Shown in pieces: positions 4,602-63,544 of a stretch of 64,000 nt of DNA (its first letter is position 1; the number at the start of each line of letters is the position of its first letter). The notes below the pieces were generated by a model. That model was not told where the DNA came from. It saw only the letters and a program-made list of their open reading frames with translations, and ran no database searches. The translations under genes were made by a program, and so were the position numbers. Source of the stretch: Chrysophaeum taylorii (lineage: Eukaryota; Sar; Pelagophyceae; Pelagomonadales; Pelagomonadaceae); NCBI GenBank assembly GCA_029834535.1, contig JAQMWT010000587.1, positions 1 through 64,000 on the forward strand, in the 5' to 3' direction.

Positions 4602-4604
4602 TCA

Positions 4605-19815: not shown

Positions 19816-19879
19816 GCCATGAACGCCATTCACTCCAGCTGAATAATTCCAGAGAGCTACACTATTATGTGTGCGACAC

Positions 19880-21957: not shown

Positions 21958-23063
21958 ATGTCCAATACCATTGTGAACCTCTTAGAAGCCGATAAGGAAT
22001 CTCATGTTTCAGAAGAAAAGTATCAAACTGAAACATCTGCTCCTGAAGCGTCCCCCAGTGATGCGGAGCAGAGGGGACTGCTGATACAGAGAAAATGTTC
22101 CACACTTTCCTGTCCATTAAAGATGATGAAATCGATAACATCCCTCAGCCGCTATTGCAGCACATAAATGCTAAAGCTCAGAATGCTATCGTTCGTCGTC
22201 AAGCTCGGGAAACTTCCTCGCACTCTGAGCTCCCCAATAATCTACCCAACGAAGATAATGAAGATGGCACAGATCCCCCTGTGTTGCTACCAAAATTAAA
22301 CACTGGTTTTACACTCGTCGTTGTGCCTTCCGAACAAACGCAAAGTTTCATGACACAGTACGTGTTTGGTCAAAGCTCAACACATGCCTGTTATGCAACA
22401 ATGCTTAAACTGTACAACGAGTACAATTTGCCGCTAATGACTACGCCAGGATATGCTGACACATGTGCTTCTCAACATGTAATTAACTTTAAACGTTATG
22501 CTGATCCTATCCACATCGTAAAGCTACCCGAGTCCTTATCACCTGCTATCCAGACTGCTACGGATACGCAGAGTATCACACATGCTATGATTATAAGGAC
22601 GGTCATTCCCGCTCTCCCAAAGCATCCAAATGTGGGATATGTAAAGCTAGACGTTGCGCTTTTCCTACCCAAGCAAAACGACCATAACGATCCCGATCTG
22701 CACATCATCAGTATGACTCAATGGGGAGAAGATAAACTTGGTATACATCTTTATGGAGTTGAATTTAAAGGACAATCATCTATCCAGAGTAAAATTGATG
22801 ATAATGTCAAGATTACTTTGTTTAGACTCAGTAACCTGTTGCCTACTCTACCAATTTATTCGCTACAACAAGCAAAAGCGCGTAAAATGGAACTTCGCTC
22901 ACTACAGTTCAGACTATGTGCTTTTAATGAACAACGCGAAATGCTTAAACTATATTCCACCCTCATGGAACGCGTAATTTACGTCCCATGGCTTAAAACC
23001 ATCCTGGAGTCAATGCATTCGCAGCTGCCTTACATACGCAAGCATTTCCCACCTCCCGTATGA
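21958..23063 (+). pseudogene. Copia-type protease region (copy 2)
   Basis: This opens at MSNTIVNLLEADKES; one A is missing near 22070 relative to copy 1, then the frame runs unbroken from 22095 to a UGA at 23061-23063. The active-site-like motif is D-T-C (codons 22458-22466) in YADTCASQ; the usual Gly is Cys. The downstream HIISMTQWGEDKLG matches the copia protease tail. The enzyme would cut the polyprotein; with Cys in place of Gly its activity cannot be assumed. Confidence 0.72.
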
Positions 23064-36780: not shown

Positions 36781-36789
36781 TAGTTTTTG

Positions 36790-38591: not shown

Positions 38592-39697
38592 TCATACGGG
38601 AGGTGGGAAGTGCTTGCGTATGTAAGGCAGCTGCGAATGCATTGACTCCAGGATGGTTTTAAGCCATGGGACGTAAATTACGCGTTCCATGAGGGTGGAA
38701 TATAGTTTAAGCATTTCGCGTTGTTCATTAAAAGCACATAGTCTGAACTGTAGTGAGCGAAGTTCCATTTTACGCGCTTTTGCTTGTTGTAGCGAATAAA
38801 TTGGTAGAGTAGGCAACAGGTTACTGAGTCTAAACAAAGTAATCTTGACATTATCATCAATTTTACTCTGGATAGATGATTGTCCTTTAAATTCAACTCC
38901 ATAAAGATGTATACCAAGTTTATCTTCTCCCCATTGAGTCATACTGATGATGTGCAGATCGGGATCGTTATGGTCGTTTTGCTTGGGTAGGAAAAGCGCA
39001 ACGTCTAGCTTTACATATCCCACATTTGGATGCTTTGGGAGAGCGGGAATGACAGTCCTTATAATCATAGCATGTGTGATACTCTGCGTATCCGTAGCAG
39101 TCTGGATAGCAGGTGATAAGGACTCGGGCAGCTTTACGATGTGGATAGGATCAGCATACCGTTTAAAGTTAATTACTTGTTGAGAAGCACATGTGTCAGC
39201 ATATCCTGGCGTAGTCATTAGCGGCAAATTGTACTCGTTGTACAGTTTAAGCATTGTTGCATAACAGGCATGTGTTGAGCTTTGACCAAACACGTACTGT
39301 GTCATGAAACTTTGCGTTTGTTCGGAAGGCACAACGACGAGTGTAAAACCAGTGTTTAATTTTGGTAGCAACACAGGGGGATCTGTGCCATCTTCATTAT
39401 TTTCGTTGGGTAGATTATTGGGGAGCTCAGAGTGCGAAGAAGTTTCCCGAGCTTGACGACGAACGATAGCATTATGAGCTTTATCATTTATGTGCTGCAA
39501 TAGCGGCTGTGGGATGTTGTCGATTTCATCACCTTTAATGGGCAGGAAAGTGTGGAACATTTTCTCTGTATCAGCAGTCCCCCTCTGCTCCGCATCACTG
39601 GGGGGTGTTTCAGGAGCAGATGTTCAGTTTGATACTTTTCTTCTGAAACATGAGATTCCTTATCGGCTTCTAAGAGGCTCACAATGGTATTGGACAT
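38592..39697 (-). pseudogene. Copia-type protease region (copy 3)
   Basis: The 322-codon frame 39560-38592 contains YADTCASQ (D-T-C) and IISMTQWGEDKLG and ends at the conserved UGA. The N-terminal part (39697 onward) is out of frame through loss of one T at about 39624. Confidence 0.72.
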
Positions 39698-41774: not shown

Positions 41775-43258
41775 GTGTCGCACACATAATAGTGTAGCTC
41801 TCTGGAATTATTCAGCTGGAGTAGGTGGCGTTCATGAGCGTAACCTAAGGGTGCAGCAAATTTTTGTTGCATATTCACACATATCTTCGGAGCCTCTTGC
41901 AAGTGCAGTGGGTGACTGGAAACCAACAATCGCACGCGAGAGCTCATCAGAGTGGGCGTGATATCGTGAAAATTGACGACGTACACGTAAGGGTGTAAGC
42001 GCGCTATATAAGAAATAATGGACGCCTCCTGTTCGATCAGCCACATCATGAAGCCAGCCATTTTGCACAGCTTCGTCGTCCAAGTAGTGGCCGTAACTCC
42101 CCTGCCCACATCTCTGGATGTCAAGTTGCAGAGTGCTGAATGAACGCAGGGTGGAGACGCGATACACATCGACGATGACCATTCCGCTTCAGGCAAATAA
42201 GCCTTGATCAATCGGAGGGTCGTGTCATATCGTCCGCAGAGCGTGTGCTGAACCACGTGTATCTTCGGAAAATTCTTCTGATGAATCTTGTTGGCAGCTT
42301 TTGAAGAGCCAAGAGCAAGGACGACTCGAAACGACGTCCCACACAACTCATTTGCTCGTTGCAGTCCTAAAGTACTTCCTCCGGCGCCGCTAAAGAGCAT
42401 CACAACCTTGCGATACGTGACCGGCACCCAGTGGACCTTTTCAAACCTTCGGCGAATCTCGCCTTCTGTAACTTCTCGGCATTTCTTTTCCTCCTTGTCA
42501 GTTCGTCGGTCGAAAGCGTCGTTACCGAGCGATTCTTGACGAGAATTCTTCTTCTTATCGGCAGAAGGAGACGCCTTCTGCACCGAGCTCAAAAGCATCG
42601 GTTCGGGAGCCGCATCGCCTTGAGTCAGATGGCTTGCGACCGAAACAGTGAATGGTAGGTTAGCCTTGTTAGATTCGGCTTCACCATCCTTCGTTACATC
42701 GTCGACCGTCTCAGCATTCAGCTCGTCATCAAAACGAACAATATCGCCCAAAGCAAGAACTTCACCTTGAGTAATCACGGTCGGCACATCCTGGGTAGAT
42801 GATATCGCCACTCGAGCTGCGAACTTATCATGATCCTCAGGAGAAGAACACATTCCATCGACTACCCCGAGTTGCTCGTACCCATAAGACATAGCAACAA
42901 AAACTTGCCCGGTTTCAATGGGCTCTGAAAGAGCGACTGGCACGCAGTAGGTGCGCCCTGGCTCGACCTTCATCGTGCGCGCAGCATAGGCTATCACTTC
43001 ATAGGCATCGCTGTTCGAACTTTGAGAAGGCGTAACTGGAGGGACTCCCCAAGTCGTCGAAGCTCCCGCTCGTTTCGGCGGTGGACGCTGGAGGTCTTCA
43101 ATCTTGCACAAGCGAGCGTAGACTCGGTTCTCAACTGTGCTCAGGCTCTTTTGCATCGCACGGTGCTGTTGCACATAAACCTGAACTACCACGGGATTGC
43201 GCTCGTCATAAGTTGTTCTGAACGTCAAAATTGGAGAATCGACTCGTCGATCCTGCAC
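41775..43258 (-). pseudogene. Element D linker plus C5 methyltransferase (copy 3)
   Basis: One open frame of about 495 codons. The first 200 residues are a post-protease domain (ARTMKVEPGRTYCVPVAL, YEQLGVVDGM, ITQGEVLALGDIV). Then come a charged spacer and the methyltransferase: motif I VVMLFSGAGGSTLG, motif II-like LALGSSKAANKIH, motif IV IASPPCVHSAL with the catalytic Cys, WLIEQEAS at the motif VI position, and LMSSRVRLLVSS (motif VIII). The sequence enters the Copia-A LTR before motifs IX and X, so the enzyme is C-terminally truncated. Confidence 0.82.
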
Positions 43259-43792
43259 CTTTAACTTCTTGCGCCCATAAGCGACTTGTGTGTGGAGAAA
43301 CGCAATGCGATTTCGCGGTTAGTCCACTATGGCTCACAGCACCCGAATATCGCGCGCCCCCAGCAAAAATAGATGATTAGTATCGGCCACAATAGCAACC
43401 ACTGGAACGGCCACGTCGTCCGCAAGCGCAATTCGTAATGCTACCCATTTGTGGATAGTCGTCTTATTCAATCCTGACCCATACAGGGTGCGCTCGACTG
43501 GAAGATCACCCCGGTCAAGGATGATACTATCCTTTTCCAGTTTTTCGACCATCCCACGACAAATATAGGAGACATCAGCCATTCCATCCACGCCTAAAGT
43601 CGTTGCGAACTTCGGCCCGTCTCGTCGTCTGTAAATATGACCAACTATAAACGTAAGTGTACCAGGGTCCAAACAACCGATGGTGATGAGGTCTTGCTCG
43701 ATCTTTTCCCCATCGCTCGGCGAAAGTGCAGTGTGATGACATCGTATCTCCGGTTTCGCATCGCCCGGCATCTGCATCGTCACCGATGCCAT
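43259..43792 (-). pseudogene. Element D aspartic protease (copy 3)
   Basis: GVDGMADVSYI stands at the active-site loop and NHLFLLGARDIRVL at the C-terminal hydrophobic-Gly motif. Two stop codons (after RVL and in the IVD*PRNR stretch) separate it from the methyltransferase frame; copy 2 reads G and Y there, so the ancestral polyprotein was probably continuous. The D-G-M triad is atypical. Confidence 0.68.
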
Positions 43793-44739
43793 ATCTGGCG
43801 TTCCACATCTCGCCTCTGAATCTATATTGGCGCTCGCCGCTTCGGCTGCTAAAAGAAGACGTCGTTCCCGACGTCAACTCAAAAGGTCTAACGTCATCAT
43901 CGTGAACTGCCCTGCAAGACATGCACATTGACGAATGGGGGGACACTGGAACCTGCGGCTCGTCGGTCTCCGAGTCTGAGTCTCCCCAGTAGTGCTGAGA
44001 ATCCAAAGTGGCATCTGATATTGCTTCCACATACGATGTAGATGGCCACCGAACGATCCGAGCGTTGGTGGTATTATGCTCCTGTTGCAAGCGATGGCTG
44101 CTCGTCACAGCGGCATCGGCAACATCATCGGAGACTCGGGCGGGTCGCGCCGTCGGGTAAAAGACAACTCCCGACGATGGCGGCGCGTCGCATAGAGACT
44201 GGAACGCGAAAGTTGCGCTCGAATGTCCCGAACTATCCTGATATCGACCTCCGTCATATTCGTCATCGTAATGTCGATGACGTCTGCGCCGGCGCGAATT
44301 GCGACTAGAGCTCCGGCTATGGCGGCGACGGCGGGGGCTCGGGCTTGTTTGAGGAGTATTGGCCTTTCGATCAGGGCTCTTGCTTCGATGTCGGCGCGAC
44401 GATCGTCTAGAAGGTGATCGTCCGTCTCGCTGTCGTGTAGAAGACGATTTGCTATCCTTGATACCTCTGACCTCGCTCACCATGGTCGCCATTATGGTTC
44501 CAAGCTCGGTGAGGGCCGTTTGAATTTCATTAGAAGGCTCCGATCCGCGCGTGGCGTTCGCGTGACGCATCATCACGCTTCTCCCAATCGGAACGCGATA
44601 TGGGTAGCTTCTTCTGCTTTCGAATGCGCTTCCACATCGCACAGTAATAACGGTCCGGATCGCGGTTGCAAACCACGCGATTTCCGTGTTCATCTTCATC
44701 ATGGATGGTCCAGAAGAATCCGCAGTCCTTGCACGTCTT
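43793..44739 (-). pseudogene. Element D cysteine motif and RS-rich region (copy 3)
   Basis: The cysteine motif TCKDCGFFW...VVCNRDPDR follows the TAG at 44742-44740. An RS-rich stretch (SPSRRSSRRHRSKSPDRK, then Arg/His runs) and an acidic stretch (DSDSETDEP) come next. About 230 bases present in copies 1 and 2 are deleted near 43850. RS domains often bind RNA or splicing factors; the role here is unknown. Confidence 0.6.
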
Positions 44740-46251
44740 CTAGCACCACCAAGAAGGATCTCGTAAGATCAGCGGATCCGTATTCCCAGACGGTTTATCC
44801 GCATCTTGCTTGGCTTGTTGATAGGAGGCCATAGCTCGACCTCCCCGCCCTCGCGGCGGTTTATTCGATTTCGGATTAGGAGGGCCTTGGTCCTTCTCCT
44901 CCATCAACTTTCGCGAGTAGTTCTCGAGCCGCGTAATAAGCGCCACCATCGACTTAAAAGTCAAGTAACTATCAGGATGTCCGCTCCTCATAGTCCGCAC
45001 ACGGGTCCTCAACTCCTTGGATGTCAACCCACTGATAAGCTGGTCGAGGATATCGACATCATCCATCGTGCGGCTGGACACGGAACAAAAAGCCAGGGCT
45101 TCAGATTGAAATTTGGTGCAATACGTTTGCACATGCCGCTCCCCAGACTTCTTCGGAACTGAAGCCTGGGTGACCTTCCGCAGCTTGTCGAGCAGCTCCT
45201 GCTGCGTGCTCGGAGGTCGGCAAGTCGATCTAAAGTAATCCAGAATTTTATCGCAATACGTCTTACAAAGACGACGGATGCGACGAACCGAGGCTCCATG
45301 CTCTTCATTGTCAGCATCCAATTTCAAGTAAAACGACGGACCGTGCGGTAGCTCATCGCAAAGCTCCTCGTATTTCCGCAAGTGTTCCTCAAAAATTGGT
45401 GCAACGGTGTCCCGTAGATGCACCGGTAATAAGTAACGTAATTTCTCGACCGAGTAATGGTCATCCGCTAAAGTATGCATCACCGCTGCCGAATCCAAAT
45501 TGAATTGCCGTTGATCTCGGCCGTCGATGACGAGTTTGAAGTTGTCAGGCTTCAAACTGGAAGTGGGGCGACGGGATCGGCTCAAGTTGGCCTTTTCGAA
45601 GGCGTCCGCAACCGTCTGCGTTATTCCCCGCGATAATCCCCGTAAAATTTTCGTACCTTCATCCTCAGCTTCCGCCCTACCCTCAGTCTCCGTATCGACT
45701 CGGGGCGGAGGTTCATTCCCCGTTTCAGTGTTCCTTTCCGGTTCAGGCTGCCTCACGGGCGTTTCCGGTTCGGGTCGACTCACGGGTCGTTCGCGGCTAC
45801 TCTCACGACGCGCACGTTCGGCTAACAATTCGTCTCGTTCACGACGAAATCGTTCAACCTCTTCACGTAGGGTCTTCGATGTCTCAATCTCTTGCTGCAA
45901 TGCGTCATTGAGCATGTCGCCTTCTCGTCGAGCTGCTTCCTCTTTCGCTTCAGCCCTTTCACGGGCAAAACGCTCAGCTAATCGTTCATTTTCGCGACGT
46001 CTCCGCTCGAGGTCTTCACGCAGTCGACTTCGGGCTGCAGATCCGCGCTCAATCGTAACACGCTCGCCACGGTCCGGCGTCGTTGGACTCAACGGCGAAA
46101 AAATGGCAGTATCCGGAGGCACGTCAGGGGGCAAGTCAGCAATGTCGACTGCCTCAGCCTCGTGTAATTCACCTTCCTCGCGGCCTATCTCAGGGGCGGC
46201 GGGAAGCACTGGAGGAGATTCATCCTCACGCACGTCTGCGTCTGTATCCAT
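44740..46251 (-). CDS. Element D Gag (503 codons, ends at a nonsense TAG)
   Basis: ATG at 46251. Residues 1-60 are acidic and Pro-rich; about 65-160 form an Arg/Glu-rich coiled coil (ERRRRENERLAERFARERAE); about 215-430 are a capsid-like helical region (NFKLVIDGRDQRQFNL, YLLPVHLRDTVAPIFEEHL); the tail is basic (PPRGRGGRAMAS). It ends in PSWWC followed by TAG, which is AAG in copy 1. Long for a Gag, with an unusual N-terminal coiled coil. Family level (LTR-retroelement Gag) is inferred from position before protease and the capsid-like region. Confidence 0.72.
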   Translation of the reverse strand: MDTDADVREDESPPVLPAAPEIGREEGELHEAEAVDIADLPPDVPPDTAIFSPLSPTTPDRGERVTIERGSAARSRLREDLERRRRENERLAERFARERAEAKEEAARREGDMLNDALQQEIETSKTLREEVERFRRERDELLAERARRESSRERPVSRPEPETPVRQPEPERNTETGNEPPPRVDTETEGRAEAEDEGTKILRGLSRGITQTVADAFEKANLSRSRRPTSSLKPDNFKLVIDGRDQRQFNLDSAAVMHTLADDHYSVEKLRYLLPVHLRDTVAPIFEEHLRKYEELCDELPHGPSFYLKLDADNEEHGASVRRIRRLCKTYCDKILDYFRSTCRPPSTQQELLDKLRKVTQASVPKKSGERHVQTYCTKFQSEALAFCSVSSRTMDDVDILDQLISGLTSKELRTRVRTMRSGHPDSYLTFKSMVALITRLENYSRKLMEEKDQGPPNPKSNKPPRGRGGRAMASYQQAKQDADKPSGNTDPLILRDPSWWC

Positions 46252-46826
46252 ACTATATCAAATGTCGATGAGAATCTCGAAACACGTCCGGATCCAACAC
46301 TCGAAGTAATGCACGTTGATCCCAACAACGCTATCTGTCACTGTGAAAACAGCACTCACGGAATTCCAATCCGCTGGCAATCCAAAATGCCCCAAAATGC
46401 CCGTGGGTAGCGATCCCACTCGCTAACAGCTTCCGCCGTTCAGCTCTATCAAAATCAATTCCCGGGAGAATGCGCTGCGATTTCCAACTAGCACGCGTGT
46501 TCGTCGTCTCTCGGAACGCACGAACACAATAAAGTTCGCGTATATTCTCAACGCAAACCGGTCCACTGGAACTCCGCGTGCTTGATCAGGGCACACGTAC
46601 AAATCCGGACGACGTAATACAACATGTACGGCAGCACTCGCTCGTCGGCGACCAATGTAGTCGCACGATCTCGTGTACTCCACCACGCATGGCGGTACTG
46701 AAAAACCACTCCCGACACCCTGGTGACAAAGGGGGCACTCACCGACTCGTCCTAGAGCTCACTGAACGAGGAAAACACGGACTCGGGGTCGGATATGCTC
46801 GCCACACACCTTGCTCACACTCACGA
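46252..46826 (-). other. 5' region of element D copy 3
   Basis: 575 bases upstream of the Gag start, conserved in all copies; untranslated leader or LTR part. No clear gene. Confidence 0.5.
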
Positions 46827-46831
46827 AGATG
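46827..46831 (+). repeat. Target-site duplication of Copia-B, left
   Basis: AGATG, repeated at 58451-58455. Five-base duplications are normal for copia integrases. Confidence 0.9.
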
Positions 46832-47145
46832 TGCAGAGAAATCTGCTGCCTCTTACCCTTATCCGTCCGTTGAGAACGTGATCTCTTCCTTACCCTGCCT
46901 CTTCCTTTCTACACAATCAAATAGTCCTCTGAGTTGTGCTTAAGCTCATCATCATGGTCTAGCGCGTCCCGAGGTATGTAGCACTATACACTTTACCTTT
47001 TCGTGTAGTTCTAGATGCCGCCTGTCGTGTTCTGAGGATATAGGGAACATACCTTTTCATTCCCCGAATTAAATACTTCCAGACGTTCATGATGAGACGG
47101 GATGGTTTCCCAGGTGACTTACCACTGCTTGCTAAATGCTCTGTA
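46832..47145 (+). repeat. Copia-B 5' LTR
   Basis: 314 bases, starting TGCAGAG and ending CTCTGTA; the 3' LTR ends CTCTGCA, giving 7-bp inverted termini. A handful of differences from the 3' LTR indicate a fairly young insertion. Confidence 0.92.
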
Positions 47146-47160
47146 GGTTATGGGCCCAGG
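47146..47160 (+). other. Primer-binding site, initiator tRNA-Met anticodon arm
   Basis: GGTTATGGGCCCAGG starts on the first base after the LTR and is complementary to the anticodon arm of initiator tRNA-Met (half-tRNA priming). Confidence 0.85.
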
Positions 47161-47665
47161 CGGGTCCCTGAGAAACCATGTGTTAAAACGTGCACGTAAC
47201 CTATGGGTATTGGGCTGTTACCGCGCCGGCCCAGCCTCGCCACGTAAACACGCTTGTGAATACAACGCCATTACCATTGGGCTGTATATAACACATTTTG
47301 CACACGTGATCGTGTAACCTTGTGTGCACCTGTTCATAGTATCGTATTGTCATGTCAATGTTGATGTGTGTGTAATTGGCTAACCTGTACTCTTGCACAC
47401 ATGTTATGGAATATTTTGGGTACGTCCACTCGTACATTCCATGGCAATGCACTTAACAAGCTCCTTGAGAGCACCAAAACTAACCAGCTGCCTGAGTGAC
47501 TACGCTTAGCGACACTACTCTGGACTCACAGCTTGCACAGTCGTCAAATAGACATCTTTCCATCGAAAACGATGAGTGTACATTGACACCGATAGACAGA
47601 CCCCCTTAGAATGTCTAGACAGTGTCAACTGCGCGACTGAACCCACAGGTTCCCCGTCAACTGCT
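47161..47665 (+). other. Copia-B leader
   Basis: 505 bases before the Gag ATG. Contains TATATAA at about 47284-47290, which could be a downstream promoter element or chance. Upstream in-frame codons are open from 47576 but without ATG. Confidence 0.5.
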
Positions 47666-50458
47666 ATGGCAGAACACGCAGCACGAACCGCACCCAAGGC
47701 GATCACAGGTGCGGCGGATATATTGAAGCTCGAAGCTCCTGTAGTTGAGTTTCTTAACGATGGAAATCGATTTCAGCTTCAGACTCGCAAGGTATCCTTG
47801 CAAATCAAGCATATCAAGCAATTACTACGGTCCAGTCATGCCGATGCCTTCCTCGAGTACGACTCGTACGAAGCATATACTCGGTCATGCAAGGACTACG
47901 AGATCCTCCGGAATCAAATTCTCGATCGCGTTTTCCTGGAATGGAAGACCGATAGGGCTGCTGATCTCCGTTTAGCTGTTGATGAATTGCCCCCTGAGTA
48001 TCAGGAATGGCATTTCACCAACGAAGCTTTCCCCAACTTACCTGATGCAGAAGTAGCTCAGCTAGCTACTGTCTGTTACGACTATGAAGTCAAGGCATTA
48101 CGTCCTGAAATCAATGCCCGTTTCTTAGAAGAGGAACGAATCTTAAATCGCGCGCACCCGAAAGCATTAGCTTTCGACACCCGTGTTCGTGCCCCTGTTA
48201 CTATGTTTTCGTTAACTGCTGCTGACTGGCACACTTATCAGAACACGTATGCTACATTCTTGCATACTTACTTCAATCTTGAAAGTGTTGGAAAACCAGC
48301 ACTTGCGGCCTGGCCCGCCATCAATGAGGTATATAACAAAAGTTATTTACCCAACAAGGCTCGAGCCATTATGCTCATCGCCTTTAGTCACTACGAGTCT
48401 GTTACGACTACTGATGTGTCCTATTTGAAACAGCAATTTAACTCTGTTGTTTATAATCCTAACTGGTATGTCCATGTGTTTATCGAAGATGTCCTAGCAT
48501 TTAGGCAAATCTCTTACCAACTTAACCAGGAAGAGACTGACCTTCAATTCGACTTTGGTGCTCTTTGGTACTCTTGTAGAACAATTTATGAAGAGATACA
48601 TCGGCATTATGTCGATAACACCAGCAACAATCGTTACGATCGTGGTTGGGTAGATTGGTGTTATATGTATGAAACCCTATCTTCATCTCGGCCTGTGCCA
48701 GAAGCTGAACGATTGTGTCACCCTACCAACCCTAGCTACATTTTAGAATACGCATTAGACTTATACAATGTAGTATCAAATGGGTCGAACAAAAGACGCT
48801 TAGAACGCCCCGTTTCTTGGCAACCCTATGTCGAAGGTTTATCATCTCAACCAAAGCCAAAGTTACTACTTACAAATACGCTGGATTTAGCAGACAAAAG
48901 TCTGACTCAAACTGCTAACACACTCGCCTTCATCACTGCGTCTCAACCTGGTACATCTTCCACGTTTAATGCTAGACGCTTGCGTAACTCTAATGATGCT
49001 CGCCAGCCTTTCTCTCGCAGCGACTTATCGTACTACCGTTCTGGTGATTCTTATGTCACCAAGAAAACTACAGGACAGTCCCATGATCGCCCAATTTACC
49101 CCCGCACTTTTGACAGGTCCTCTCGGTCTAACATGAAATTATTAGATCGAACAAATCACACCTTAAACACCCTGCGAGAACAGTGTAGTGAACTTACGAA
49201 GCATGTGACAGATAATGATACCACGGCTCAGCTACAACAGAATATCAACAAGTTATTTGAGACTCTATTACAATCAGCTGACATTCTGTCAACGACATCT
49301 GAGGACAACAGTAATTTACTTCGTCTAAACGAACAACTCATGTTTGCAGAAGACATCATTTATGATGTAGACGTTCATCTATCCTCGACCGAAAAGTCGT
49401 TAAACTACGTGGAGCCACAACATCATACTGTTGTTACTGCTCCCACCCCAAAGGCAACTCCTCCTACTACAGACACGAAGAATCCCCCCAACACACAGGG
49501 TAATCCTTCCAATAGTGTGCCTAACCTCTTTCCTGCTTCCGCCATCTCGGCTTTACCACCAGCGTTACTGTCCTCGCTATCTTCACAGGTCCAATCTGCC
49601 CTCAACTTACCACCACAAGCCGAAACCAAAAGGGATGCCGATCATACTTCGCTATCGTCATTTGATGAAAAGCACGGCATGGCTGATGAGGCTGACGAAC
49701 CATCACCACCTGTTCAACCGACTATCATTCCAACGAATCTGCTATTGCTGGAGAACTTCTTCACGGCCAGCCTCTCCACCACTTGCACACACTCGGAAAA
49801 CGCCTTCCTCACCAACTACATGAAGGTAAACAGTGTCCCTCCACATTGTTCTTTTCTATATTTTGACTCTTGTGCTACCATCTCATTGATGTCCACTTAC
49901 GATTTTGCAATACCCAATCATATTATTCCACTGGACTCCAAATACGCGCCGATTGTTATTCAAACAGCCACTGGACAACAACGTGCCTCACACATGATGT
50001 TAACACGCAACATCGTTGTTCCCCTACCAGATCATCCACAAGTTGGCTATGTTAAGATCGACTTCGCTTTACGTCTTCAGCCAGTGCACGACCGACATCT
50101 CGCTATCCTGAGCATGCTCGAGTGGAACCAGACGAACCTGACCACTGTGTTCAATGATCGAGCTGAGCCAAAGCTCAGCGCTGTCACAAGCCGCATAGAC
50201 AAAGATGTACGTATTCCCATACACTACATAGCAGCTAATTTACCTGCTCTTCCTTGTCTCACCTACAACATCGCTCGCGACAAGCAACTCGAACTTCGTT
50301 CCCTCGCATTTCCCCTCAAGCGATACCAAACAGGGATCTACTTGCATACTACAACTACCTACTCCAAAGAGTTTTACCAGATCGCCCGTGGATTCGCCCT
50401 TTGGTTCTCAATCTTCGGAAACATAACAAGTTTGATCAGCAAAATACGCAGCCATTAA
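47666..50458 (+). CDS. Copia-B Gag-protease polyprotein
   Basis: 930 codons from the ATG at 47666 (MAEHAARTAPKAITG), chosen because the frame above has no earlier ATG. Residues 1 to about 575 are Gag, mostly helical with no zinc knuckle, ending at TEKSLNY (49388-49408). A Pro/Ser-rich spacer follows, then the protease with FDSCAT (D-S-C; Asp codon 49865-49867) instead of D-S-G, QTATGQQRAS as flap region and LAILSMLEWN at the copia protease tail. The last about 40 codons are probably frameshifted: frame 1 from about 50340 aligns better with Copia-A and ends at UGA 50461-50463. Confidence 0.85.
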   Translation: MAEHAARTAPKAITGAADILKLEAPVVEFLNDGNRFQLQTRKVSLQIKHIKQLLRSSHADAFLEYDSYEAYTRSCKDYEILRNQILDRVFLEWKTDRAADLRLAVDELPPEYQEWHFTNEAFPNLPDAEVAQLATVCYDYEVKALRPEINARFLEEERILNRAHPKALAFDTRVRAPVTMFSLTAADWHTYQNTYATFLHTYFNLESVGKPALAAWPAINEVYNKSYLPNKARAIMLIAFSHYESVTTTDVSYLKQQFNSVVYNPNWYVHVFIEDVLAFRQISYQLNQEETDLQFDFGALWYSCRTIYEEIHRHYVDNTSNNRYDRGWVDWCYMYETLSSSRPVPEAERLCHPTNPSYILEYALDLYNVVSNGSNKRRLERPVSWQPYVEGLSSQPKPKLLLTNTLDLADKSLTQTANTLAFITASQPGTSSTFNARRLRNSNDARQPFSRSDLSYYRSGDSYVTKKTTGQSHDRPIYPRTFDRSSRSNMKLLDRTNHTLNTLREQCSELTKHVTDNDTTAQLQQNINKLFETLLQSADILSTTSEDNSNLLRLNEQLMFAEDIIYDVDVHLSSTEKSLNYVEPQHHTVVTAPTPKATPPTTDTKNPPNTQGNPSNSVPNLFPASAISALPPALLSSLSSQVQSALNLPPQAETKRDADHTSLSSFDEKHGMADEADEPSPPVQPTIIPTNLLLLENFFTASLSTTCTHSENAFLTNYMKVNSVPPHCSFLYFDSCATISLMSTYDFAIPNHIIPLDSKYAPIVIQTATGQQRASHMMLTRNIVVPLPDHPQVGYVKIDFALRLQPVHDRHLAILSMLEWNQTNLTTVFNDRAEPKLSAVTSRIDKDVRIPIHYIAANLPALPCLTYNIARDKQLELRSLAFPLKRYQTGIYLHTTTTYSKEFYQIARGFALWFSIFGNITSLISKIRSH
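49387..49407 (+). other. T-x-x-S-L-N-Y motif 1 (Gag/protease boundary)
   Basis: Encodes TEKSLNY in frame with Gag-protease; one of five near-identical 21-base copies in Copia-B. Confidence 0.6.
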
Positions 50459-50460
50459 CC

Positions 50461-50466
50461 TGACTA
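50461..50466 (+). other. UGA-CUA before the methyltransferase
   Basis: In-frame with the methyltransferase and homologous in place to the UGA of all Copia-A copies (RKH...UGA alignment). UGA-CUA is a classical readthrough context. Confidence 0.5.
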
Positions 50467-51668
50467 CTTTCACGCCCAGTGTTTCTCTCACAAGAGTCCA
50501 ATCTCCGCAAACCCTCTGTCATGTTACTTTGTTCTGGTTTGTCAACTCCGGCGTTCCTGTCTCAAGCCACTAATGACTTAGGCTTAAATATCAATGTAAA
50601 AGTTGTTGTTGAGTCTGATGATACGCTTGTTCGTATGTTACGCTACCGTTTCCCTACTGTATTATTATTTGAATCTCTCCCCGCCTATATTAACCATCTT
50701 CACCTAATTTCACCAGAGGAAAGGCGCACATTCTATTGTGATATGATTGAGATTACTTCTCCCTGCACAAACAGGAATCTACTAAAGCAGCATAAGACAG
50801 AAGACTTACACAGCCTGCTGGACGATTCTCTTTTCGACAGCATGCTGTCTGTCATCAAGTTACTCCAGCCCTTGGTACTACTGGCTGAGATGACGCCTCC
50901 GCATAAGTACTGTCATCAAGACCACATCACAGTGGCCAACCTTATCCATGCAACACTTGATTACTGTGTCGATGTTGTTGACAGGTTCCCAACCTACCTC
51001 TGTGGCGACTACCAATCTAGAGAAAGATGGATATGCGTCGCACGCAGATATTCTACTGGACCAATTAAGCTATTATCGTGGCCAATCCTCCATCCACGCC
51101 CCTTCCTAAAGATCGTGGATGATCTACAAGCTATTCCCAAGCGTCTTTGGCTACCTAAACACGTATCCAAAGACTGGATCCGGGTGTTCCCCGATCCTCC
51201 ATATATCCCCGTTCCGAAAACGTTTGCACCTTACTCTCGCACAGGTTCTGTTCAGCTTACTATGGCTGACCTTGAATCCCTCAATATGTTACTGCCTTGC
51301 CTTCACTCACAACGGCTCACGAGCAACGTACTCACTCTGTTCAATCCGAGTGTACTTATCATCAGCTGTGCTTTAAACACTCCTCTATGGAGCCGCTGCC
51401 CAATGCAACCTACCGTATACACGTCAAGGTTTTTACAATCCTCTATAACTTGCTTGCCAGCTTACACTAACTCACCCACTCCTGTGTCTTATTACACAAC
51501 CGTTTTCGAAACTAACCAACAGTCACACAGGTTACTACTTACAACCTCATCAACATCACATAACTCCCACTTCTTAACTGGTGGCCACCACTCTGATGGC
51601 AACCCCATAGAGAACGCCACCACCAAATATCATGCTTTTATTGACGCGTTTGGAAGCACGTATACGTT
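50461..51668 (+). pseudogene. DNA cytosine-5 methyltransferase, N-terminal part (Copia-B)
   Basis: Open frame with motif I MLLCSGLSTPAFL (about 50524), motif II-like VVESDD, motif IV ITSPCTNRN with the catalytic Cys (about 50760), motif VI AEMTPPH (about 50886) and motif VIII QSRERWICVARR (about 51015). It aligns with Copia-A through DAFGSTYTF, then the sequence flips strand at about 51669. The frame reads on to 51921 into inverted DNA, so the native C-terminus is lost from this strand. Confidence 0.85.
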
Positions 51669-52355
51669 CACGTTTCTGCTTCCGACATTCCCCGCGACCG
51701 GGACAGGTCCATATATTTGGAGCCGTGGTGGAAGCTTGGTCAACGGTCATGAAATTGGATACATAGGATTTCTTCGTCACGGCAGCAGTATGTTAGAAGG
51801 TAGGGTCCAACACAAGGGATTTAATATCGGCAACGAGGAGCGAGAGGTGCTTGTACAGAGTGCTGTAAGTACCGGCAGGCAGAGCATTGCTGAGCATGTC
51901 ACAGCAAAGGTCATGGCGTAGAGACAAGAGGAAGGATTCCTGTTGTTTGGTGTGGTTGTTAGCACGAATCAACTCCGGTCGAGTGGGGTAGCGTAATTTC
52001 CCGTTGCGGGGGTCAAGTAAAATAATATTGGCGTACCCTCGAACGGTGGGCAATGGAGCATGCATGGAGTGGATTTTAGAGCCAAGTTTGCGGTCACTTC
52101 CACGAAGGTACCCTATATAGCGACTATGAGATAAGTGGTGATCTTCCAGAGCAAAATGAGAATCCTTGTAGTCGAAAGAGTTGTCGGTGGCCTTGTAGGT
52201 AAGGCAGCCAGGCATCACAAGAGAGCATCTGGACAAGAGCTTTTGTATGGCGGTGCCATAGGTGGCAGCGGAGCCAACTTGGGGAAGGGCTTGGACTATC
52301 CACAAGTAACCCGTAAACGTGCAGCACAGATACCTTGTCTTTGGCTCAATCTTTT
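51669..52355 (-). pseudogene. Inverted segment: methyltransferase C-terminus (motifs IX-X)
   Basis: The minus strand encodes VTCGYLW-like start, HHLSHSRYIGYLRGSDRK, PTVRGYANIILLDPRNGKL, motif IX RYPTRPELIRANN and motif X LSNALPAGTYSTLYKHL, the direct homologue of Copia-A 24300-24900 but in reverse. On the plus strand, homology to Copia-A resumes at about 52355. This is a roughly 0.69 kb inversion within the element. Confidence 0.85.
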
Positions 52356-53590
52356 ATGATGTCTATTTCCAGCAACTGCTTGACCGAAATGTCGTTAAAC
52401 TATATATCTTCGTCCTACGAAGATACTCTCGCTACTCGTGATGATGAGGATGCACCTCCAAGTGACCCTGCTGCGCACCAGGATGACGACGCACCGCCTC
52501 CCCCTGCCTTAGACACCGAACTCAAGTTCGATGTTCGGCGCAAGCGGCGTATTCCCGCTCATCCCATTCCTCGTAAGTCCGTAAGTCCCTCGCACACGGA
52601 TCTACCGAATATCTCAATGCCAAAGAACGTGCCAATCGCTTCCACCGCGTGCGTCACTGCCCCGAAAACGTCGCTGCCAAGGCCCCCAACGTACTTGCTC
52701 GCCCTGGATTCTCTGCTTCTGACATACCATATCGCGACTTATGCACCGACTGCTTCGCACACAACAAGCGCCACCCACACAAGCATTTCAATGCGACCAA
52801 GCCTTCTTTTGAGCAAACTCACAAAGCCGGCGAAGTCTGGGCGTGCGACGGCGGCTATGTGACAATCCCATCCGAATGGGGAGGCTTCACACATATCATC
52901 GTCTTCAAGGAACTCATTTCGAAATTTCTCTTGGTGTACTTTACACGCGCCACCAACGCCACGGAGTTCACTCAATCTCTGGATTTTGTGTATGACTTCT
53001 GTCGTACACAACTCAACGTGCACATGCGCACCCTCTACTCCGATGCCTTCGAGCCCTACTTTAGCCAGCACATTACCTCCCCGTCCGCGTCGATAAGGGC
53101 TTCAACTCATCGCCTTCCCGCCGTACATGCACCACTTTAACTTTGAAGTTGAGTCCGCCATCGGTTTCATCGCCTCCGCCTCCTCAACTCGCCTTCGTTC
53201 TCTCCTTAATGCTCACTATCGTGGCGCCAAGATCGTGGAACCAGCCATCATGTTTCCGTGGGCGGTGATACACACCGTTCAAAGCTACAACCTTCTCCCG
53301 AACGCCACGCTCGAGCGCATTCATCATGCTATCCTGAGTCCGCAACAGCTACTCTACAACCAACTCAACACTCCCCAACATGACATGCTCAAGATTTTTG
53401 GCGCTGAATGCTACCTTTTATTGGAGCCCCATGAACACCACAAGTGGGAACCGTGCCGCCGCAAATACTTATATCTCTGTTGCGCCAACGCGCAAAACCC
53501 GCTCGTCTCCCCACGCGTCGACCATCTCGCTGACGTCGTCCTCAACCCTGAAAACGGACAAATTCGTGTTTCGTCCAAGCTGCAATTCCT
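52356..53590 (+). pseudogene. Copia-type integrase (Copia-B)
   Basis: After LTEMSLNY (52383) come an acidic spacer and the zinc region (FHRVRH...CTDC, 52640-52760). The core has WACDGGYVTIPSEWGG (first catalytic Asp), NATEFTQSLDFVYDF and TLYSDAFEPYFSQH (second Asp). A shift at about 53100 moves to the next frame, which continues with FPWAVIHTVQSYNLLP, IFGAECYLLL and LADVVLNPENGQI. The catalytic Glu position is uncertain. Best integrase of the window. Confidence 0.82.
52382..52402 (+). other. T-x-x-S-L-N-Y motif 2 (before integrase)
   Basis: Encodes TEMSLNY, in frame with the acidic spacer preceding integrase. Confidence 0.6.
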
Positions 53591-54548
53591 CTACATGCTT
53601 CAGCATCCTACTCCTGATCCTGAACTTGCTCCTCCGCCTCACGCTCCTCCCGCGCCTTTCTCGCTCACACCCCGCGCCGCTATCCAAGACCATGTCATTC
53701 AGAGGGGGACACGGACTCCTCATCCTCAGAGGGGGCACTCCCCACCTCCTTCAGCTCCTTCTTCGTCCCCTGCTCCTGCTTCTTCTCCCTCTTCTGACAC
53801 TCTCGCCGACGATTCTGGCTCTATGTCACCGCCGCCCTTGCTTCCTTTTTACAAAGACCTTTTTGCACAAGATGAACTCATTCTTGTCCCAGGTTCCAAA
53901 CAACCCCACACCCGCGAGGCAACTTCTATGAAAAACATCCAAGCCCGGCTGCAAGCGTCTACTATTGGTGCTTACAAAGCCGCTGGTGGCAAACTCGCCG
54001 ATTTCCGCTGGGATCTTCGCCACCACTTTCTTACGTTCAAGTCTCCCGCCCTCTCCGCCCTTCATCTCAATGGCGGTATCCTCTGGTCTGGTATCTGCTC
54101 AGAGGGGGAACATGCGTTGTTAGCTCGTCTTCTTCTCCCGTTGCGCACTGACTTACTTGCCCGCTACCCGCACGTCGATGGTTACTTCGCCCACGCCAAG
54201 TGCGCATCCAGCATTCCAGCTGCAACCTTTTTAACTGCTGATGGTTCACCTACGTGCCCCATTCCTCAGCCCCTTTTATCTGCGTTCACTGAACACGCTA
54301 CCTTTGGCACTTCTTCCTTATAATATGCACTTACGTACCTGGCGCCGACCAGCTTTATTGATCACAACTCCTCCGAGTTTGGCGCTACTTCTGCACCTCT
54401 GGCTGACTTGGAGGAATACCTTCTGGTCTCTACAGAGTTTATCACCCAGGTCTTGCACACCGAACCTACTATCCATATTCAACTGGAATCTGCTTCTCCT
54501 ACTCCTACTGACGCTGTTTCCGCTTATCCCGAAGTTGCGCACACTGCC
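53591..54548 (+). pseudogene. Integrase-RT linker domain (Copia-B)
   Basis: Low-complexity Pro/Ser/Ala region with three CAGAGGGGG tracts, followed by the conserved block GAYKAAGGKLADFRWDL and a Leu-rich tail. A TAA at 54321-54323 interrupts the frame, which then continues in the same phase (SSL*YALTY) into RT; Copia-A has a codon there (VYALF). Confidence 0.65.
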
Positions 54549-56441
54549 TCGACCGCAACGTCGCTAAACTATAATTCACCAGCCATTGTTGGTCCTGACG
54601 AATATAAGGTCCAAGAAGCGGACGTTTCCATTGACGAATATAAACTTAAGTGCCTCCACGGTTTGTCGCCTGAAAACAGGCACGCCTACCTCAAGGCCAT
54701 CGCCAAGGAACTCCACGACATTATCCGCTTTGGCTGCTTCAAACTTTCCTTACCCGACGGTGTCTCTCGTCCTATTGACAGCAGGATGGTGCTGAAGATT
54801 AAAACAGACTCTGCAGGCAAATACGTTAAGCACAAGGCTCGCCTCGTGCTACGTGGCTTCCTAGCATCTCTTGGCGCCGATTTCTTTGGCACCTTCAGCC
54901 CCATGGCCACAATGACCGCAATCCGGGTACTACTAGCTATTGCAGCATACAAGCAATTGCCTGTCTACCATGCAGACGTCCCGAACGCCTTCGTTCAGTC
55001 TGACATTGATGCCAACGTCTATGTTCAGTTACCAGACGGCATCAAGCTTATCGACCCCGATGACGCTAAGTACAAGGGCCGACGTCTACCGAAACTGCTG
55101 AAGTCACTTTATGGACTTCGGCAATCACCATCTCTTTGGAACAAAGAGATAGACGGCTTCTTCCGTAGCCTTGGCTACAAACGCCTGCATTCGGACTCTT
55201 GCCTATATGCTCGAGTATCCGCACATGCTAAGTTCGTCGTATGCAGTCTGTCTGTAGACGACATTGTTATTGTGTCCAATGACGACCCTCTTCGTACTGA
55301 GTTACAGGATGCCCTCCACAAACGGTATGCTGTAGAGCAGTTTGAACCTGTCCATACCCTCCTAGGCATGCGCGTGTGTCGCACATCTGACGGTTCCATT
55401 TCTCTGGATGTGCAAGCCAAGCTGGATGAACTCTTCGCTGATCACCCAGTCTTGCAGCAACTGACCCCGCTTAAATATCCTATGTCATCGTCCTTCAAGT
55501 ATAAAGATGGCACTCCCAGCTCTGAAACAGAGTTGTACATCAATTCGCACTTTGCCACTCTCCTTGGCAAGCTGGTGTTCATGCAAGTTGCCTGCAGACC
55601 TGACTTCTCGCAAGCCTTGGGCAGATGTTCGCGTGGTATGCATGCACCCACGTATGTTCACGTCCAAATGCTAGAGCATTTGCTTCGCTACCTCAAGAAG
55701 CCGGAAAACCGCTCACTTCGCCTCTGGTTCCATCCTAAAGGTAATGCCATTGAAGCTCACCTTCGCACTGTCTCCGCTAATCGAATTGATCTATCCACTG
55801 TGGTCGACTACCAACCGCAGGATGTATCTACTGGACAGTTTGATCCCTTAGTTGCCATGGTTGACGCTGACAACGCCCCTTCCTTAGCACAGGAAGATAG
55901 GAAATCTACCACCGGGTTTGTCTTCTATCTTTTCAACTGCCTTATTGGTTGGAAAAGCAAACTTCAACCGATTGTCTCCTGCTCAACTCACGAAGCTGAG
56001 TTGATTGCCCGCAGTATTCGTGCTGATGAAGCTGTTTGGCTACGCAAGCTGCTGTTGGAACTCTCCTTTGTCGTCAACCCGACCTTTTACGTCAATAATG
56101 CTAATGGTGAGAACACCGCTGACCCTGTTGACTCTGATGACAATGACAACCCAATTGCTGAAGATATGCGCTTCATCAGAAGCCTACCACTCTTGTCTGA
56201 CAATGCTGCCGCTGTTCACACCTCTAATAACCCAGATGGGTCTTCTCGATCCAAGGCACTGTCGACCAGATGGTTTAAGATCCGTGAGTACATATCGCTA
56301 CAGAAAATACGAGTCCATCATGTTCCCGGCAAGCTAAACGTGGCGGATGGTTTTACAAAGCCACTTGCTGCTGAGTTCTCCACTTTTCGCTCTCTACTCG
56401 GTATGCATCATGCCTCTGACGACAAGCCTTTACAGGATTGA
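54549..56441 (+). CDS. Reverse transcriptase-RNase H (Copia-B), intact domain
   Basis: Open from 54324 to 56441; begins at the boundary motif TATSLNY. RT motifs: KARLVLRGF, FGTFSPMATMTAIR, DVPNAFVQSDID (first Asp), LKSLYGLRQSPSLW and SLSVDDIVI (catalytic VDD). RNase H: DADNAPSLAQEDRKSTTGF (first Asp), GWKSKLQPIVSCSTHEAELIA (Glu), SDNAAAVHTSNNP (Asp) and ADGFTKPL. This is complete copia RT-RH, with all acidic residues present. Ends DDKPLQD with UGA. Confidence 0.93.
   Translation, partial: STATSLNYNSPAIVGPDEYKVQEADVSIDEYKLKCLHGLSPENRHAYLKAIAKELHDIIRFGCFKLSLPDGVSRPIDSRMVLKIKTDSAGKYVKHKARLVLRGFLASLGADFFGTFSPMATMTAIRVLLAIAAYKQLPVYHADVPNAFVQSDIDANVYVQLPDGIKLIDPDDAKYKGRRLPKLLKSLYGLRQSPSLWNKEIDGFFRSLGYKRLHSDSCLYARVSAHAKFVVCSLSVDDIVIVSNDDPLRTELQDALHKRYAVEQFEPVHTLLGMRVCRTSDGSISLDVQAKLDELFADHPVLQQLTPLKYPMSSSFKYKDGTPSSETELYINSHFATLLGKLVFMQVACRPDFSQALGRCSRGMHAPTYVHVQMLEHLLRYLKKPENRSLRLWFHPKGNAIEAHLRTVSANRIDLSTVVDYQPQDVSTGQFDPLVAMVDADNAPSLAQEDRKSTTGFVFYLFNCLIGWKSKLQPIVSCSTHEAELIARSIRADEAVWLRKLLLELSFVVNPTFYVNNANGENTADPVDSDDNDNPIAEDMRFIRSLPLLSDNAAAVHTSNNPDGSSRSKALSTRWFKIREYISLQKIRVHHVPGKLNVADGFTKPLAAEFSTFRSLLGMHHASDDKPLQD
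54551..54571 (+). other. T-x-x-S-L-N-Y motif 3 (linker/RT boundary)
   Basis: Encodes TATSLNY, directly before the IVGPDEYK start of the RT region. Confidence 0.6.
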
Positions 56442-56458
56442 AGATGCCTAACTCTAGT

Positions 56459-56479
56459 GACCGCAACGTCGTTAAACTA
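56459..56479 (+). other. T-x-x-S-L-N-Y motif 4 (after RNase H)
   Basis: Same frame as RT-RH, 18 bases beyond its UGA; reads TATSLN followed by TAG in place of Tyr. Confidence 0.55.
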
Positions 56480-57348
56480 GCCCTGGCCTTACCTCCTTTT
56501 GCCACAAATTTTTGTACGCGTGCGAGTGTCGCTCATGTCTTTTCTTGGCACTCCCGTGGCCGCGGCATCTCCCTAGTCGGTTGAAGGACAGTCCCTTCTC
56601 GCTCTCCACGGCCGAACCTTCCCCCAGGTTGTCGCAAAAGCAACGAACCATGACTGCTACTACTGCTACCACACTGGCTGCTGCGGTTGCACTCTCTCCT
56701 TGAGAACTTATGTGTCCCGTCACCCCATTTCTCTCTTCTTTTATGCGAGTGGAACTCACACTGCCCTATGAGTCTACTGACTTTTCATTGTTTGTAGACC
56801 TGACCACATTCATATCCATGCGCTTACCCATTACTATACCTTGGGAGGCTGCTCCTGCTATTGCTTCTATTGGTTGCCACAGAGGCCCCAAACGCGAACG
56901 TTTCATTTGTCGCTTTCCTTTTTTTGTACGCAGTGCCTCAATGACCGTGGACAACCGACTTTCCTAGTCTCGACCACGTACAGTTCCAAGGCACAAACAC
57001 CTCGTGAACTCCCCACTGAAGTGCTGAGTCACCTCAACACGGACGACCATAAGAAGAATGGTCATACCCCCATTTCTGCTATTACCACGAACATTTGCTG
57101 TGCTCGTCACAACACCGTTCAGTTTACTTGTGACTCTTGTTCGAACACAGAGTCGCAAAGCTCAGACTATGCAGGCCATCCATTCAGCATTTGATTACTA
57201 CTGTTGCTCAATCGCGTGTACAACATCTTGACGACTACACATCATCCTCTGATGATACAGAACCGCTATCACTCCGGGATGTAATGTTCGGCCACACTTA
57301 TACTCAGGCAGAACATTAAGACTTCCTGCGCCCCTTTTTTTTAACGTT

Positions 57349-57640
57349 GACCGAAACGTCGTTAAACTACTCACACTCCACGCTAGACGCTACTCTGGAG
57401 ATATCTTCGCCATCGTTACCTACGTCTTCTGCTTCGCTTGCTGATTTCGACATCTTGTGTCAACAAGTCGACCAACTCCAGGAAACTCTTCGAATCTATA
57501 TTACCGAGGCTGCCATTGCTTCAATCACCTCCCTGGAGAACCGGCTCTTCCCTCCTACAGCCAACACCCACGTGTTACTAATAACACTGTACAAGATCAC
57601 AGAGCTCTTGTCTCGCTTAACACTCACCGCTCATGACTAA
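57349..57640 (+). pseudogene. Possible 3' ORF after motif 5 (Copia-B)
   Basis: About 97 codons beginning with the fifth motif copy, TETSLNY, and continuing as a probable coiled coil (QQVDQLQETLRIYITEAA, SLENRL). The motif at its start suggests that it was once the last piece of the polyprotein. No family recognised; no ATG at the start. Confidence 0.4.
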
Positions 57641-58126
57641 CATGCTGCCAACCACTCCTCCCCGGACGATCACCCCCTTCATCTACGTGACAAGTTGCTC
57701 TCATGCTTCAGAGCATTCTGTCCGCTCTCATGTGATTCTGAAGACTCTTCTATCTTCGTTCGCCAAGCCCAACTTTTTTTTTTGAAAAAAGAAAACCAAC
57801 TGGACACCTTTCAACTAGATTTTCTTTCGCCATCCATACTGAATGCTCTACTTGCACTCACCCTTCTCTTGGCACCACATCATTCAGCTATTGGTTTTCA
57901 CCACCTTACAGCAGAAGCTGACGACGATTGATAATCCTAACACACTGTCTGTTGTATCTGTGTCTCTTAATGTTCTGTTCAAAAGGGTCAAATCGACCTA
58001 TACTCTTGATGCTTCTTCGTATGTGACCTCTGCGACCATCAAGACTGTATTCTCCTTTTTTCTTTCCTTCATCATCATCTTTCTCAAGAGATGTTCTATA
58101 GACGCACCTTGCGCTTAAGACATCTC

Positions 58127-58133
58127 GAGGGGG
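58127..58133 (+). other. Polypurine tract of Copia-B
   Basis: GAGGGGG immediately before the 3' LTR; the expected plus-strand primer position. Confidence 0.75.
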
Positions 58134-58450
58134 TGCAGAGAAATCTGCTGCCTCTTACCCTTATCCGTCCGTTGAGAACGTGATCTCTTCCTTACCCTGC
58201 TTCTTCCTTTCTACACAATCAAATAGTCCTCTGATTTGTGCTAAAGCTCATCATCATGGTCTAGCGCGCCCCGAGGCATGTAGCACTATATCCTTTTTTA
58301 CCTTTTCGTGTAGTTCTAGATGCCGCCTGTCGTGTTCTGAGGATATAGGGAACATAGCTTTTCATTCCCCGAATTAAATACTTACAGACGTTCATGATGA
58401 GACGGGATGGTTTCCCAGGTGACTTACCACTACTTGCTAAATACTCTGCA
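58134..58450 (+). repeat. Copia-B 3' LTR
   Basis: 317 bases, TGCAGAG...CTCTGCA, near-identical to 46832-47145, followed by the target duplicate AGATG (58451-58455). Confidence 0.92.
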
Positions 58451-63523: not shown

Positions 63524-63544
63524 ACATTATCATTCGAGTCAACA

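Follow-up and report, generated by a model that had tools for sequence, protein, structure and literature searches.

Chrysophaeum taylorii is a pelagophyte alga (Stramenopiles, Ochrophyta) whose published genome assembly spans 702 contigs and 71 Mb; the main text of the genome paper makes no use of the strings "repeat", "transpos" or "retro" (PMC10366177). Here, we analysed a stretch of 64,000 nucleotides from contig C587 of this alga, referred to as the window, and searched the genome (70.8 Mb, 697 contigs) for relatives of what it contains. The window holds a complete Ty1/copia long terminal repeat (LTR) retrotransposon, Copia-B, parts of three copies of a second family, Copia-A, and fragments of a Ty3/gypsy element, Gypsy-D (Table 1). 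Both Ty1/copia families encode a C5 cytosine methyltransferase (C5-MTase) domain, the catalytic domain of DNA methyltransferases (DNMTs), between a protease-like region and the integrase. This domain is ~540–580 residues long and shares ~48% protein identity between full-length Copia-A and Copia-B sequences; a related group, Copia-C, was found in the genome through the Pfam family PF00145.

Copia-B can be followed from LTR to LTR, with repeats at 46832-47145 and 58134-58450 (314/317 bp) that are ~96% identical and a 5-bp target-site duplication, AGATG, on either side (46827-46831 and 58451-58455). It has the Ty1/copia layout, with the integrase upstream of an RVT_2 reverse transcriptase (RT); matches to the integrase families rve and SH3_retrovirus are weak, stay below their cut-offs (rve E=0.008 in the open frame of another Copia-B copy, L041) and are rightly placed. 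The initial annotation had located the domain between protease and integrase, and the place is right. The protease is assigned in Copia-B by a short D-S-C motif and its position, D-[TSG]-x motifs standing before the integrase where a protease is expected; the absence of a protease match in Pfam scans of the Copia-B gag-protease frame and of Copia-C weighs against that part of the assignment. Motifs IX-X, which lie on an inverted segment in the window copy of Copia-B, are in line in L041. None of the four window copies (one Copia-B, three Copia-A) has an uninterrupted DNMT domain, and no LTR pair was found for Copia-A within the window; long open DNMT frames occur in Copia copies elsewhere in the genome.

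Table 1. Features of the DNMT-bearing retrotransposons in the window
Feature	Position	Strand	Remarks
Copia-B, whole element, LTR to LTR	46832..58450	+	LTR pair and target-site duplication
Copia-B gag and putative protease frame	47576..50458	+	960-aa open frame
Copia-B TGA directly ahead of DNMT frame	50461..50463	+	context TGA-CTA; window copy not in frame directly before it
Copia-B C5-MTase motifs I, II, IV, VI, VIII and first part of recognition region	50506..51672	+	
Copia-B C5-MTase motifs IX-X	51796..52317	-	inverted segment, breaks window copy; 94% identity to L041
Copia-B integrase	52577..54323	+	two overlapping frames; SH3_retrovirus E=6e-5, just under cut-off
Copia-B reverse transcriptase and RNase H	54324..56441	+	RVT_2 E=3.9e-42
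Copia-A copy 1 C5-MTase	2808..4550	-	disrupted; element part from window edge to ~7808
Copia-A copy 1 in-frame TGA	4602..4604	-	
Copia-A copy 2 C5-MTase	23115..24856	+	disrupted; element part ~19848-28661
Copia-A copy 2 in-frame TGA	23061..23063	+	
Copia-A copy 3 C5-MTase	36795..38540	-	three pieces, frame changes, pieces stop-free; element part ~32985-41806
Copia-A copy 3 in-frame TGA	38592..38594	-	between protease and DNMT
Gypsy-D fragment	41807..46257	-	gag-like frame 44740-46257, C5-MTase core 41813-42421; cut by Copia-A at 41807
Second Gypsy-D fragment	15256..19910	+	adjoins Copia-A copy 2
Third Gypsy-D fragment	7733..12318	-	adjoins Copia-A copy 1

The C5-MTase was recovered where the initial annotation had placed it, in Copia-B (50506-51672 on the forward strand and 52317-51796 on the reverse strand) and in the three Copia-A copies. 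A MAFFT alignment of Copia-A, -B and -C, built without reference to motifs, has twelve columns that do not vary, which argues that the domain is more than a product of chance. They include, in motif order, Phe (I), Glu (II), Pro-Cys (IV), Glu (VI) and Arg (VIII), and the catalytic positions P86, C87, E128 and R174 follow one another in the expected order and spacing. The C-to-E and E-to-R spacings of Copia-A (41 and 44/46) are near those of HhaI (38 and 44/46). All motifs that had been listed (I, IV, VI, VIII, IX and X) are present, but motif VI reads E-M in Copia-A and -B and not E-N-V, the form kept in Copia-C (ENV); motif X reads ANAVP in most of the Copia-C rows that extend that far and NAIPAG or NALPAG in the other two families.

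Copia-A and -B are too divergent for Pfam, and homology therefore had to be demonstrated via Copia-C. A PF00145 search, which had been proposed as a check on the window's own domain, turned out negative, with a match in one of 18 Copia-A/B sequences at E=0.14. The same family matches 18 of 18 Copia-C sequences (a group itself selected with PF00145), and in one Copia-C copy a single frame of 1952 residues joins the DNMT to integrase and RT. A joint core profile of all three groups finds C5-MTases in the PDB (best E-value 5.6e-7), with HhaI/DNMT1-type enzymes as the best matches; no DNMT3A/B chain is among its 55 PDB matches at E<=1, and DRM2 appears at 0.12. In an AlphaFold2 (AF2) model, the core of L041 takes a fold like that of DNMT1 and HhaI, a class I methyltransferase core. 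Several results weigh against this identification: besides the Pfam result, a profile of Copia-A and -B alone retrieved no C5-MTase from the PDB, both families lack the motif VI Asn, and of 60 column shuffles one or more reach 31.4, above the hhalign score of Copia-A/B against Copia-C (28.2). Moreover, the alignment behind the AF2 core model included Copia-C rows, so that the model is not independent of the homology between Copia-A/B and Copia-C, and the AF2 model of a full-length Copia-C domain was unusable (predicted local distance difference test score, pLDDT, 28.8). The Copia-C domain and its alignment had no match in a protein database search (7991 and 7996 candidates scored), and in scans for an origin of the domain, 147 pattern matches in viral contigs and 51 in prokaryote contigs yielded no confirmed case.

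The domain is present at many places in the genome. Only the best candidates were scored (PF00145, 123 of 474; Copia-A, 148 of 954; Copia-B, 88 of 1743; Copia-C, 80 of 777; Gypsy-D, 150 of 869), so that copy numbers are lower bounds: at least 148 places for Copia-A, 88 for Copia-B, 80 for Copia-C and 150 for Gypsy-D. At least 112 of the 148 listed Copia-A matches lack an in-frame stop, and the Copia-A and -B domain copies span 74% to 100% identity. Linkage to the retrotransposon backbone was assessed with 150 RT, 148 Copia-A and 88 of 90 Copia-B rows (the second pieces of C481 and C32 being left out) and no Copia-C rows. A listed Copia-A/B DNMT match lies 2–7.5 kb upstream on the same strand for 53 of the 150 listed RT matches, as compared with one downstream and two on the opposite strand among the matches listed.

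The ratio of nonsynonymous to synonymous substitution rates (dN/dS) supports the view of the initial annotation that the domain has been kept through divergence and points to purifying selection, being well below 1 within Copia-A and within Copia-C. For a Copia-A pair (dS 0.7-1.2), the catalytic core has a value of 0.03, the recognition region 0.07 and motifs IX-X 0.06, as compared with 0.03 in the integrase and 0.20 in a linker; the core equals the integrase. In the two more divergent Copia-C pairs, values are 0.09-0.14 for the DNMT parts, 0.04-0.05 for the integrase and 0.19-0.27 for a linker. Less favourable to the case for selection are the higher values of the DNMT parts than of the integrase in these pairs, which indicate a DNMT that is less constrained there, a core value of 0.24 in the close Copia-C pair L015/L021, and whole-domain values of 0.10-0.46 among Copia-C pairs (higher in close pairs); young Copia-B pairs range from 0.20 to 0.48. 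The copies were also picked for long frames, a bias against stops that cannot alone yield a dN/dS of 0.03. Between Copia-A and Copia-B, synonymous sites are saturated, which makes dN/dS between the families impossible. Passenger sequence was considered as an explanation and rejected, dN/dS being 0.03-0.14 at the larger divergences.

A TGA codon stands ~17–20 codons ahead of motif I in 17 of the 18 Copia-A/B loci examined, comprising all five Copia-A loci (three of them the window copies) and 12 of 13 Copia-B loci; the remaining Copia-B locus, L038, has a stop at that position (codon not recorded) and another one after it. The context is TGA-CGC or TGA-CAC in Copia-A and TGA-CTA in Copia-B, and TGA followed by C, in particular TGA-CTA, is a leaky stop context. 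Over the stretch examined, the protease frame reads into the TGA in all but three copies, which have an interruption shortly before it (window Copia-B, L041 and L042), and downstream of it a frame of 1691 residues in Copia-B runs from the DNMT through the integrase and includes the whole RVT_2 match, whereas a frame of 1464 residues in Copia-A includes only the first part of RVT_2. We infer that in these two families the DNMT would be made by UGA readthrough, and the conservation of the codon before the domain suggests a control of DNMT dose. Separate initiation is unlikely in Copia-A, since the first Met after the TGA sits inside motif I. Two observations count against readthrough: Copia-B has a Met just ahead of motif I, from which separate initiation is possible, and no marked RNA structure was seen 3' of the UGA in the one Copia-A and one Copia-B locus examined. 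For Copia-C, readthrough was rejected: TGA-CTA is the nearest upstream stop in six of the 11 loci with a protease motif, but additional stops close the reading frame that precedes it, and in frame P0006 the DNMT shares one frame with the protease motif.

The three Copia-A copies of the window had been counted as three occurrences of the domain. The domain is indeed present in each, but it is broken, and the 5' junction with the Gypsy fragment is identical in all three (7808/19847/41807), while the mutual match of the two copies with their 3' side in the window ends at the same point (28661/32985). Such shared breakpoints indicate that probably one insertion was copied by inverted segmental duplication, and the copies are thus not independent evidence; three independent Copia-A witnesses were accordingly rejected. 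The inverted segmental duplications (1-28661 and 32985-48366) jointly carry Gypsy-D, Copia-A and part of the 5' end of Copia-B, and between two of the Copia-A copies lie short tandem and inverted repeats with units of 8, 12, 16, 19 and 23 bp (28710-32960). Downstream of Copia-B, a 520-aa frame without a Pfam match adjoins the 3' LTR (58793-60355, reverse strand) and resembles by eye the C-terminal endonuclease-like part of a long interspersed nuclear element (LINE). The start of a host gene at 63524-64000 (forward strand) matches FAD_binding_4 (E=2.6e-19) and by eye resembles L-galactonolactone dehydrogenase.

Gypsy-D, which like the TGA ahead of the Copia-A and -B domain goes unmentioned in the initial annotation, is a second carrier of a C5-MTase. 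In the window, its core shows motifs I and IV and matches PF00145 at E=0.001 with 19 bits, below the cut-off of 22, and its gag was called by eye, with no Pfam match. Its relatives L045 and L046 reach 22.2 and 23.5 bits and continue into an RVT_1 reverse transcriptase, and frames with the core reach 3067 residues in the genome. Between two subfamilies, core identity is 83–87% among the matches listed, as compared with 67–69% over a longer stretch, and the core has a dN/dS of 0.04-0.06 at a dS near 2, with one copy representing the second subfamily. Comparison with the Copia domains gave nothing with hhalign and a z of at most 2.5; the core is closest to Dnmt2 (z 4.9), and Dnmt2 chains are three of its five PDB matches (E 0.06-0.97). 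The lack of clear kinship with the Copia domain, together with the likeness to Dnmt2, points to a separate capture by a Ty3/gypsy element, probably an independent one.

Two host DNMT genes were found, a DNMT5-type gene with an SNF2 domain and Dnmt2 (L011 on C621 and L012 on C634). Among the 57 places listed for PF00145, 40 could be assigned, namely these two genes and 38 places of Copia-C, of which 19 were opened and all match the Copia-C domain, the other 19 overlapping Copia-C matches or lying no more than 1 kb away from them; the list of host DNMTs is partial in that split genes could be missed and the assignments cover 40 of the 57 places. In published work (PMC9998398), DNMT5 is described as the enzyme of maintenance methylation in Cryptococcus and is connected with heavy methylation of linkers in the pelagophyte Aureococcus, and DNMT6 has been reported from Pelagophyceae.

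The proposed function has to be weighed against alternatives. We consider it reasonably probable that a Copia element captured a C5-MTase, probably before the split between Copia-A/B and Copia-C, and has since kept the enzyme as a functioning component of Pol, methylation of its own cDNA included. Catalytic residues under selection argue that the enzyme would be active, and the location in Pol argues for a role inside the particle, which suggests that the elements may mark DNA themselves rather than merely being marked and silenced by the host. By analogy with DIRS retrotransposons, for which cDNA methylation before integration has been proposed (PMC5890265, in the text available), the most likely target would be the element's own cDNA before integration. 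In Copia-A and -B, ribosomes would halt at the leaky UGA after Gag-protease and occasionally read through, yielding a minor Gag-protease-DNMT-integrase-RT product from which the protease would release the DNMT within the virus-like particle. The enzyme could then methylate cytosines of the fresh double-stranded cDNA, so that the new copy would integrate already methylated, and host DNMT5, which in fungi is an enzyme of the maintenance type, could maintain the mark through cell division. The element might gain by passing as native methylated DNA or by limiting the harm that the host suffers for as long as the copy survives. CpG statistics lend this little help. Observed/expected CpG ratios of 0.89-1.06 in Copia versus 1.23-1.37 at host loci amount to mild depletion; the ratio is 1.17-1.27 in DNMT-bearing Gypsy-D and 0.94 in a repeat stretch of the window that is not Copia. 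CpG transition rates give no clear excess in the three Copia groups (0.024 versus 0.021-0.024 in other contexts in Copia-A, 0.071 versus 0.043-0.070 in Copia-B and 0.052 versus 0.039-0.079 in Copia-C), all of which speaks against the methylation of element DNA; Gypsy-D is the only group with some excess (0.068 versus 0.036-0.048).

The weak CpG decay would fit an active enzyme with another substrate, namely RNA, either that of the element or the tRNA that primes reverse transcription, modified in the manner of Dnmt2. The authors of the 2018 study raised an RNA substrate for the DNMTs of SymbioLINE elements (PMC5890265, in the text available), and the Gypsy-D core is, as described above, most like Dnmt2. 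The Copia-A/B/C cores themselves, however, are nearer to host DNMT5 (z 3.2-5.5) than to Dnmt2 (z 1.0-1.7), and a recognition region of ~260–380 residues is retained and under selection, which would be more typical of a DNA enzyme; we regard action on RNA as unlikely. Much the same holds for an enzyme that would work on the chromatin of the host, either across the genome or where the element integrates, and would create or recognise favourable targets or alter host silencing: the hundreds of copies and the adjoining integrase are in its favour, and uncontrolled methylation of the host by retrotransposons has been discussed for Symbiodinium (PMC5890265, in the text available), but Pfam scans revealed no chromatin reader domain, and its chances seem slim. 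That catalysis was lost and the domain persists as a nucleic-acid-binding part or structural spacer would account for the missing motif VI Asn in Copia-A and -B and for the broken window copies, yet it is hard to reconcile with the invariance of Pro-Cys, the motif VI Glu, the motif VIII Arg and the motif II Glu at 17–20% family identity, with the retention of motif X, and with a Copia-A core as constrained as the integrase, and appears very improbable. A divergent insert in Pol with motif-like words by chance, or an unused relic of capture, would explain why the Pfam and PDB searches with Copia-A and -B alone were negative; this explanation is contradicted by the dN/dS values and the predicted fold, by the PF00145 matches in every Copia-C sequence, by the 12 invariant columns, by the joint PDB profile and by the dN/dS of Gypsy-D, and it can scarcely be upheld.

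The capture and use of a C5-MTase by Copia elements, preferred here, leaves room for a bolder and rather doubtful extension, in which the retrotransposons would be the de novo methyltransferases of the alga and host DNMT5 would merely copy, the dose in Copia-A and -B being set by UGA readthrough. It builds on the hundreds of Copia and Gypsy copies with conserved C5-MTases of probably two origins and is weakened by the incompleteness of the host DNMT list together with the occurrence of DNMT6 in Pelagophyceae. If it were true, methylation would be started by the elements, on the cDNA of each and perhaps on the host genome, and the host pattern would depend on its parasites. Should the host truly have only the maintenance-type DNMT5 and Dnmt2, this would offer an answer to the question of how lineages of this kind acquire new methylation. 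C. taylorii also makes it testable why a transposon carries a transposon-silencing enzyme, as a lab-grown alga with a small genome (71 Mb) in which Copia-A and -B copies of 74–100% identity can serve as natural controls.

Retrotransposons armed with methyltransferases are a known oddity, to which C. taylorii adds a new carrier under selection and probably two new captures. The catalogue of cases thereby gains the stramenopiles, the Ty1/copia backbone and a probable second, Ty3/gypsy capture in one genome, so that such capture is a recurring event and no longer an oddity confined to two lineages. Our literature search, which did not extend to bioRxiv preprints or to many papers behind subscriptions, returned no clear report of a Copia or a pelagophyte DNMT carrier. 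A 2025 paper places DNMT3 members in "LTR Copia and DIRS" elements with reference to the 2018 study (PMC12344493, in the text available); because the latter names its LTR element Gypsy (PMC5890265), we take "Copia" to be a slip, although it may hide a real Copia case. The published DNMT retrotransposons have LINE, DIRS or Gypsy backbones, whereas Copia-A, -B and -C have RVT_2, which bears out the initial view of an arrangement distinct from those of dinoflagellates (LINE, DIRS) and charophytes (Gypsy).

The following comparisons draw on the available text of the studies cited. KnitGypsy-Dnmt3 of Klebsormidium nitens (PMC5890265) is like the Copia case an LTR element with a C5-MTase in the Pol polyprotein under purifying selection, but it combines a Ty3/gypsy backbone with the Dnmt3 class, unlike the Ty1/copia backbone, the stramenopile host and the HhaI/DNMT1-type best matches here; Gypsy-D, with its RVT_1, has a backbone of the same type as KnitGypsy. 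SymbioDIRS-Dnmt3 of Symbiodinium (PMC5890265), two copies of which methylate CG de novo in yeast, likewise has its DNMT in Pol and differs as a tyrosine-recombinase DIRS element with a Dnmt3-class enzyme. SymbioLINE-Dnmt of the same genus (PMC5890265) likewise represents an orphan DNMT lineage in many retrotransposon copies, but is a LINE with the DNMT in an open reading frame upstream of the RT, and the abundant Copia elements of Symbiodinium are described as having no DNMT domain (PMC5890265). The Sola1 transposon of Ectocarpus (PMC12477816), with ParB-like and DNA methyltransferase domains, is also a mobile element of a stramenopile alga, yet it is a DNA transposon whose enzyme, encoded by a separate gene, is predicted to make N4-methylcytosine or N6-methyladenine. 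Finally, DNMT5 shares its catalytic family with the Copia domain, but it sits in a host gene and has a C-terminal SNF2 domain, neither of which is true of the domain in Copia.
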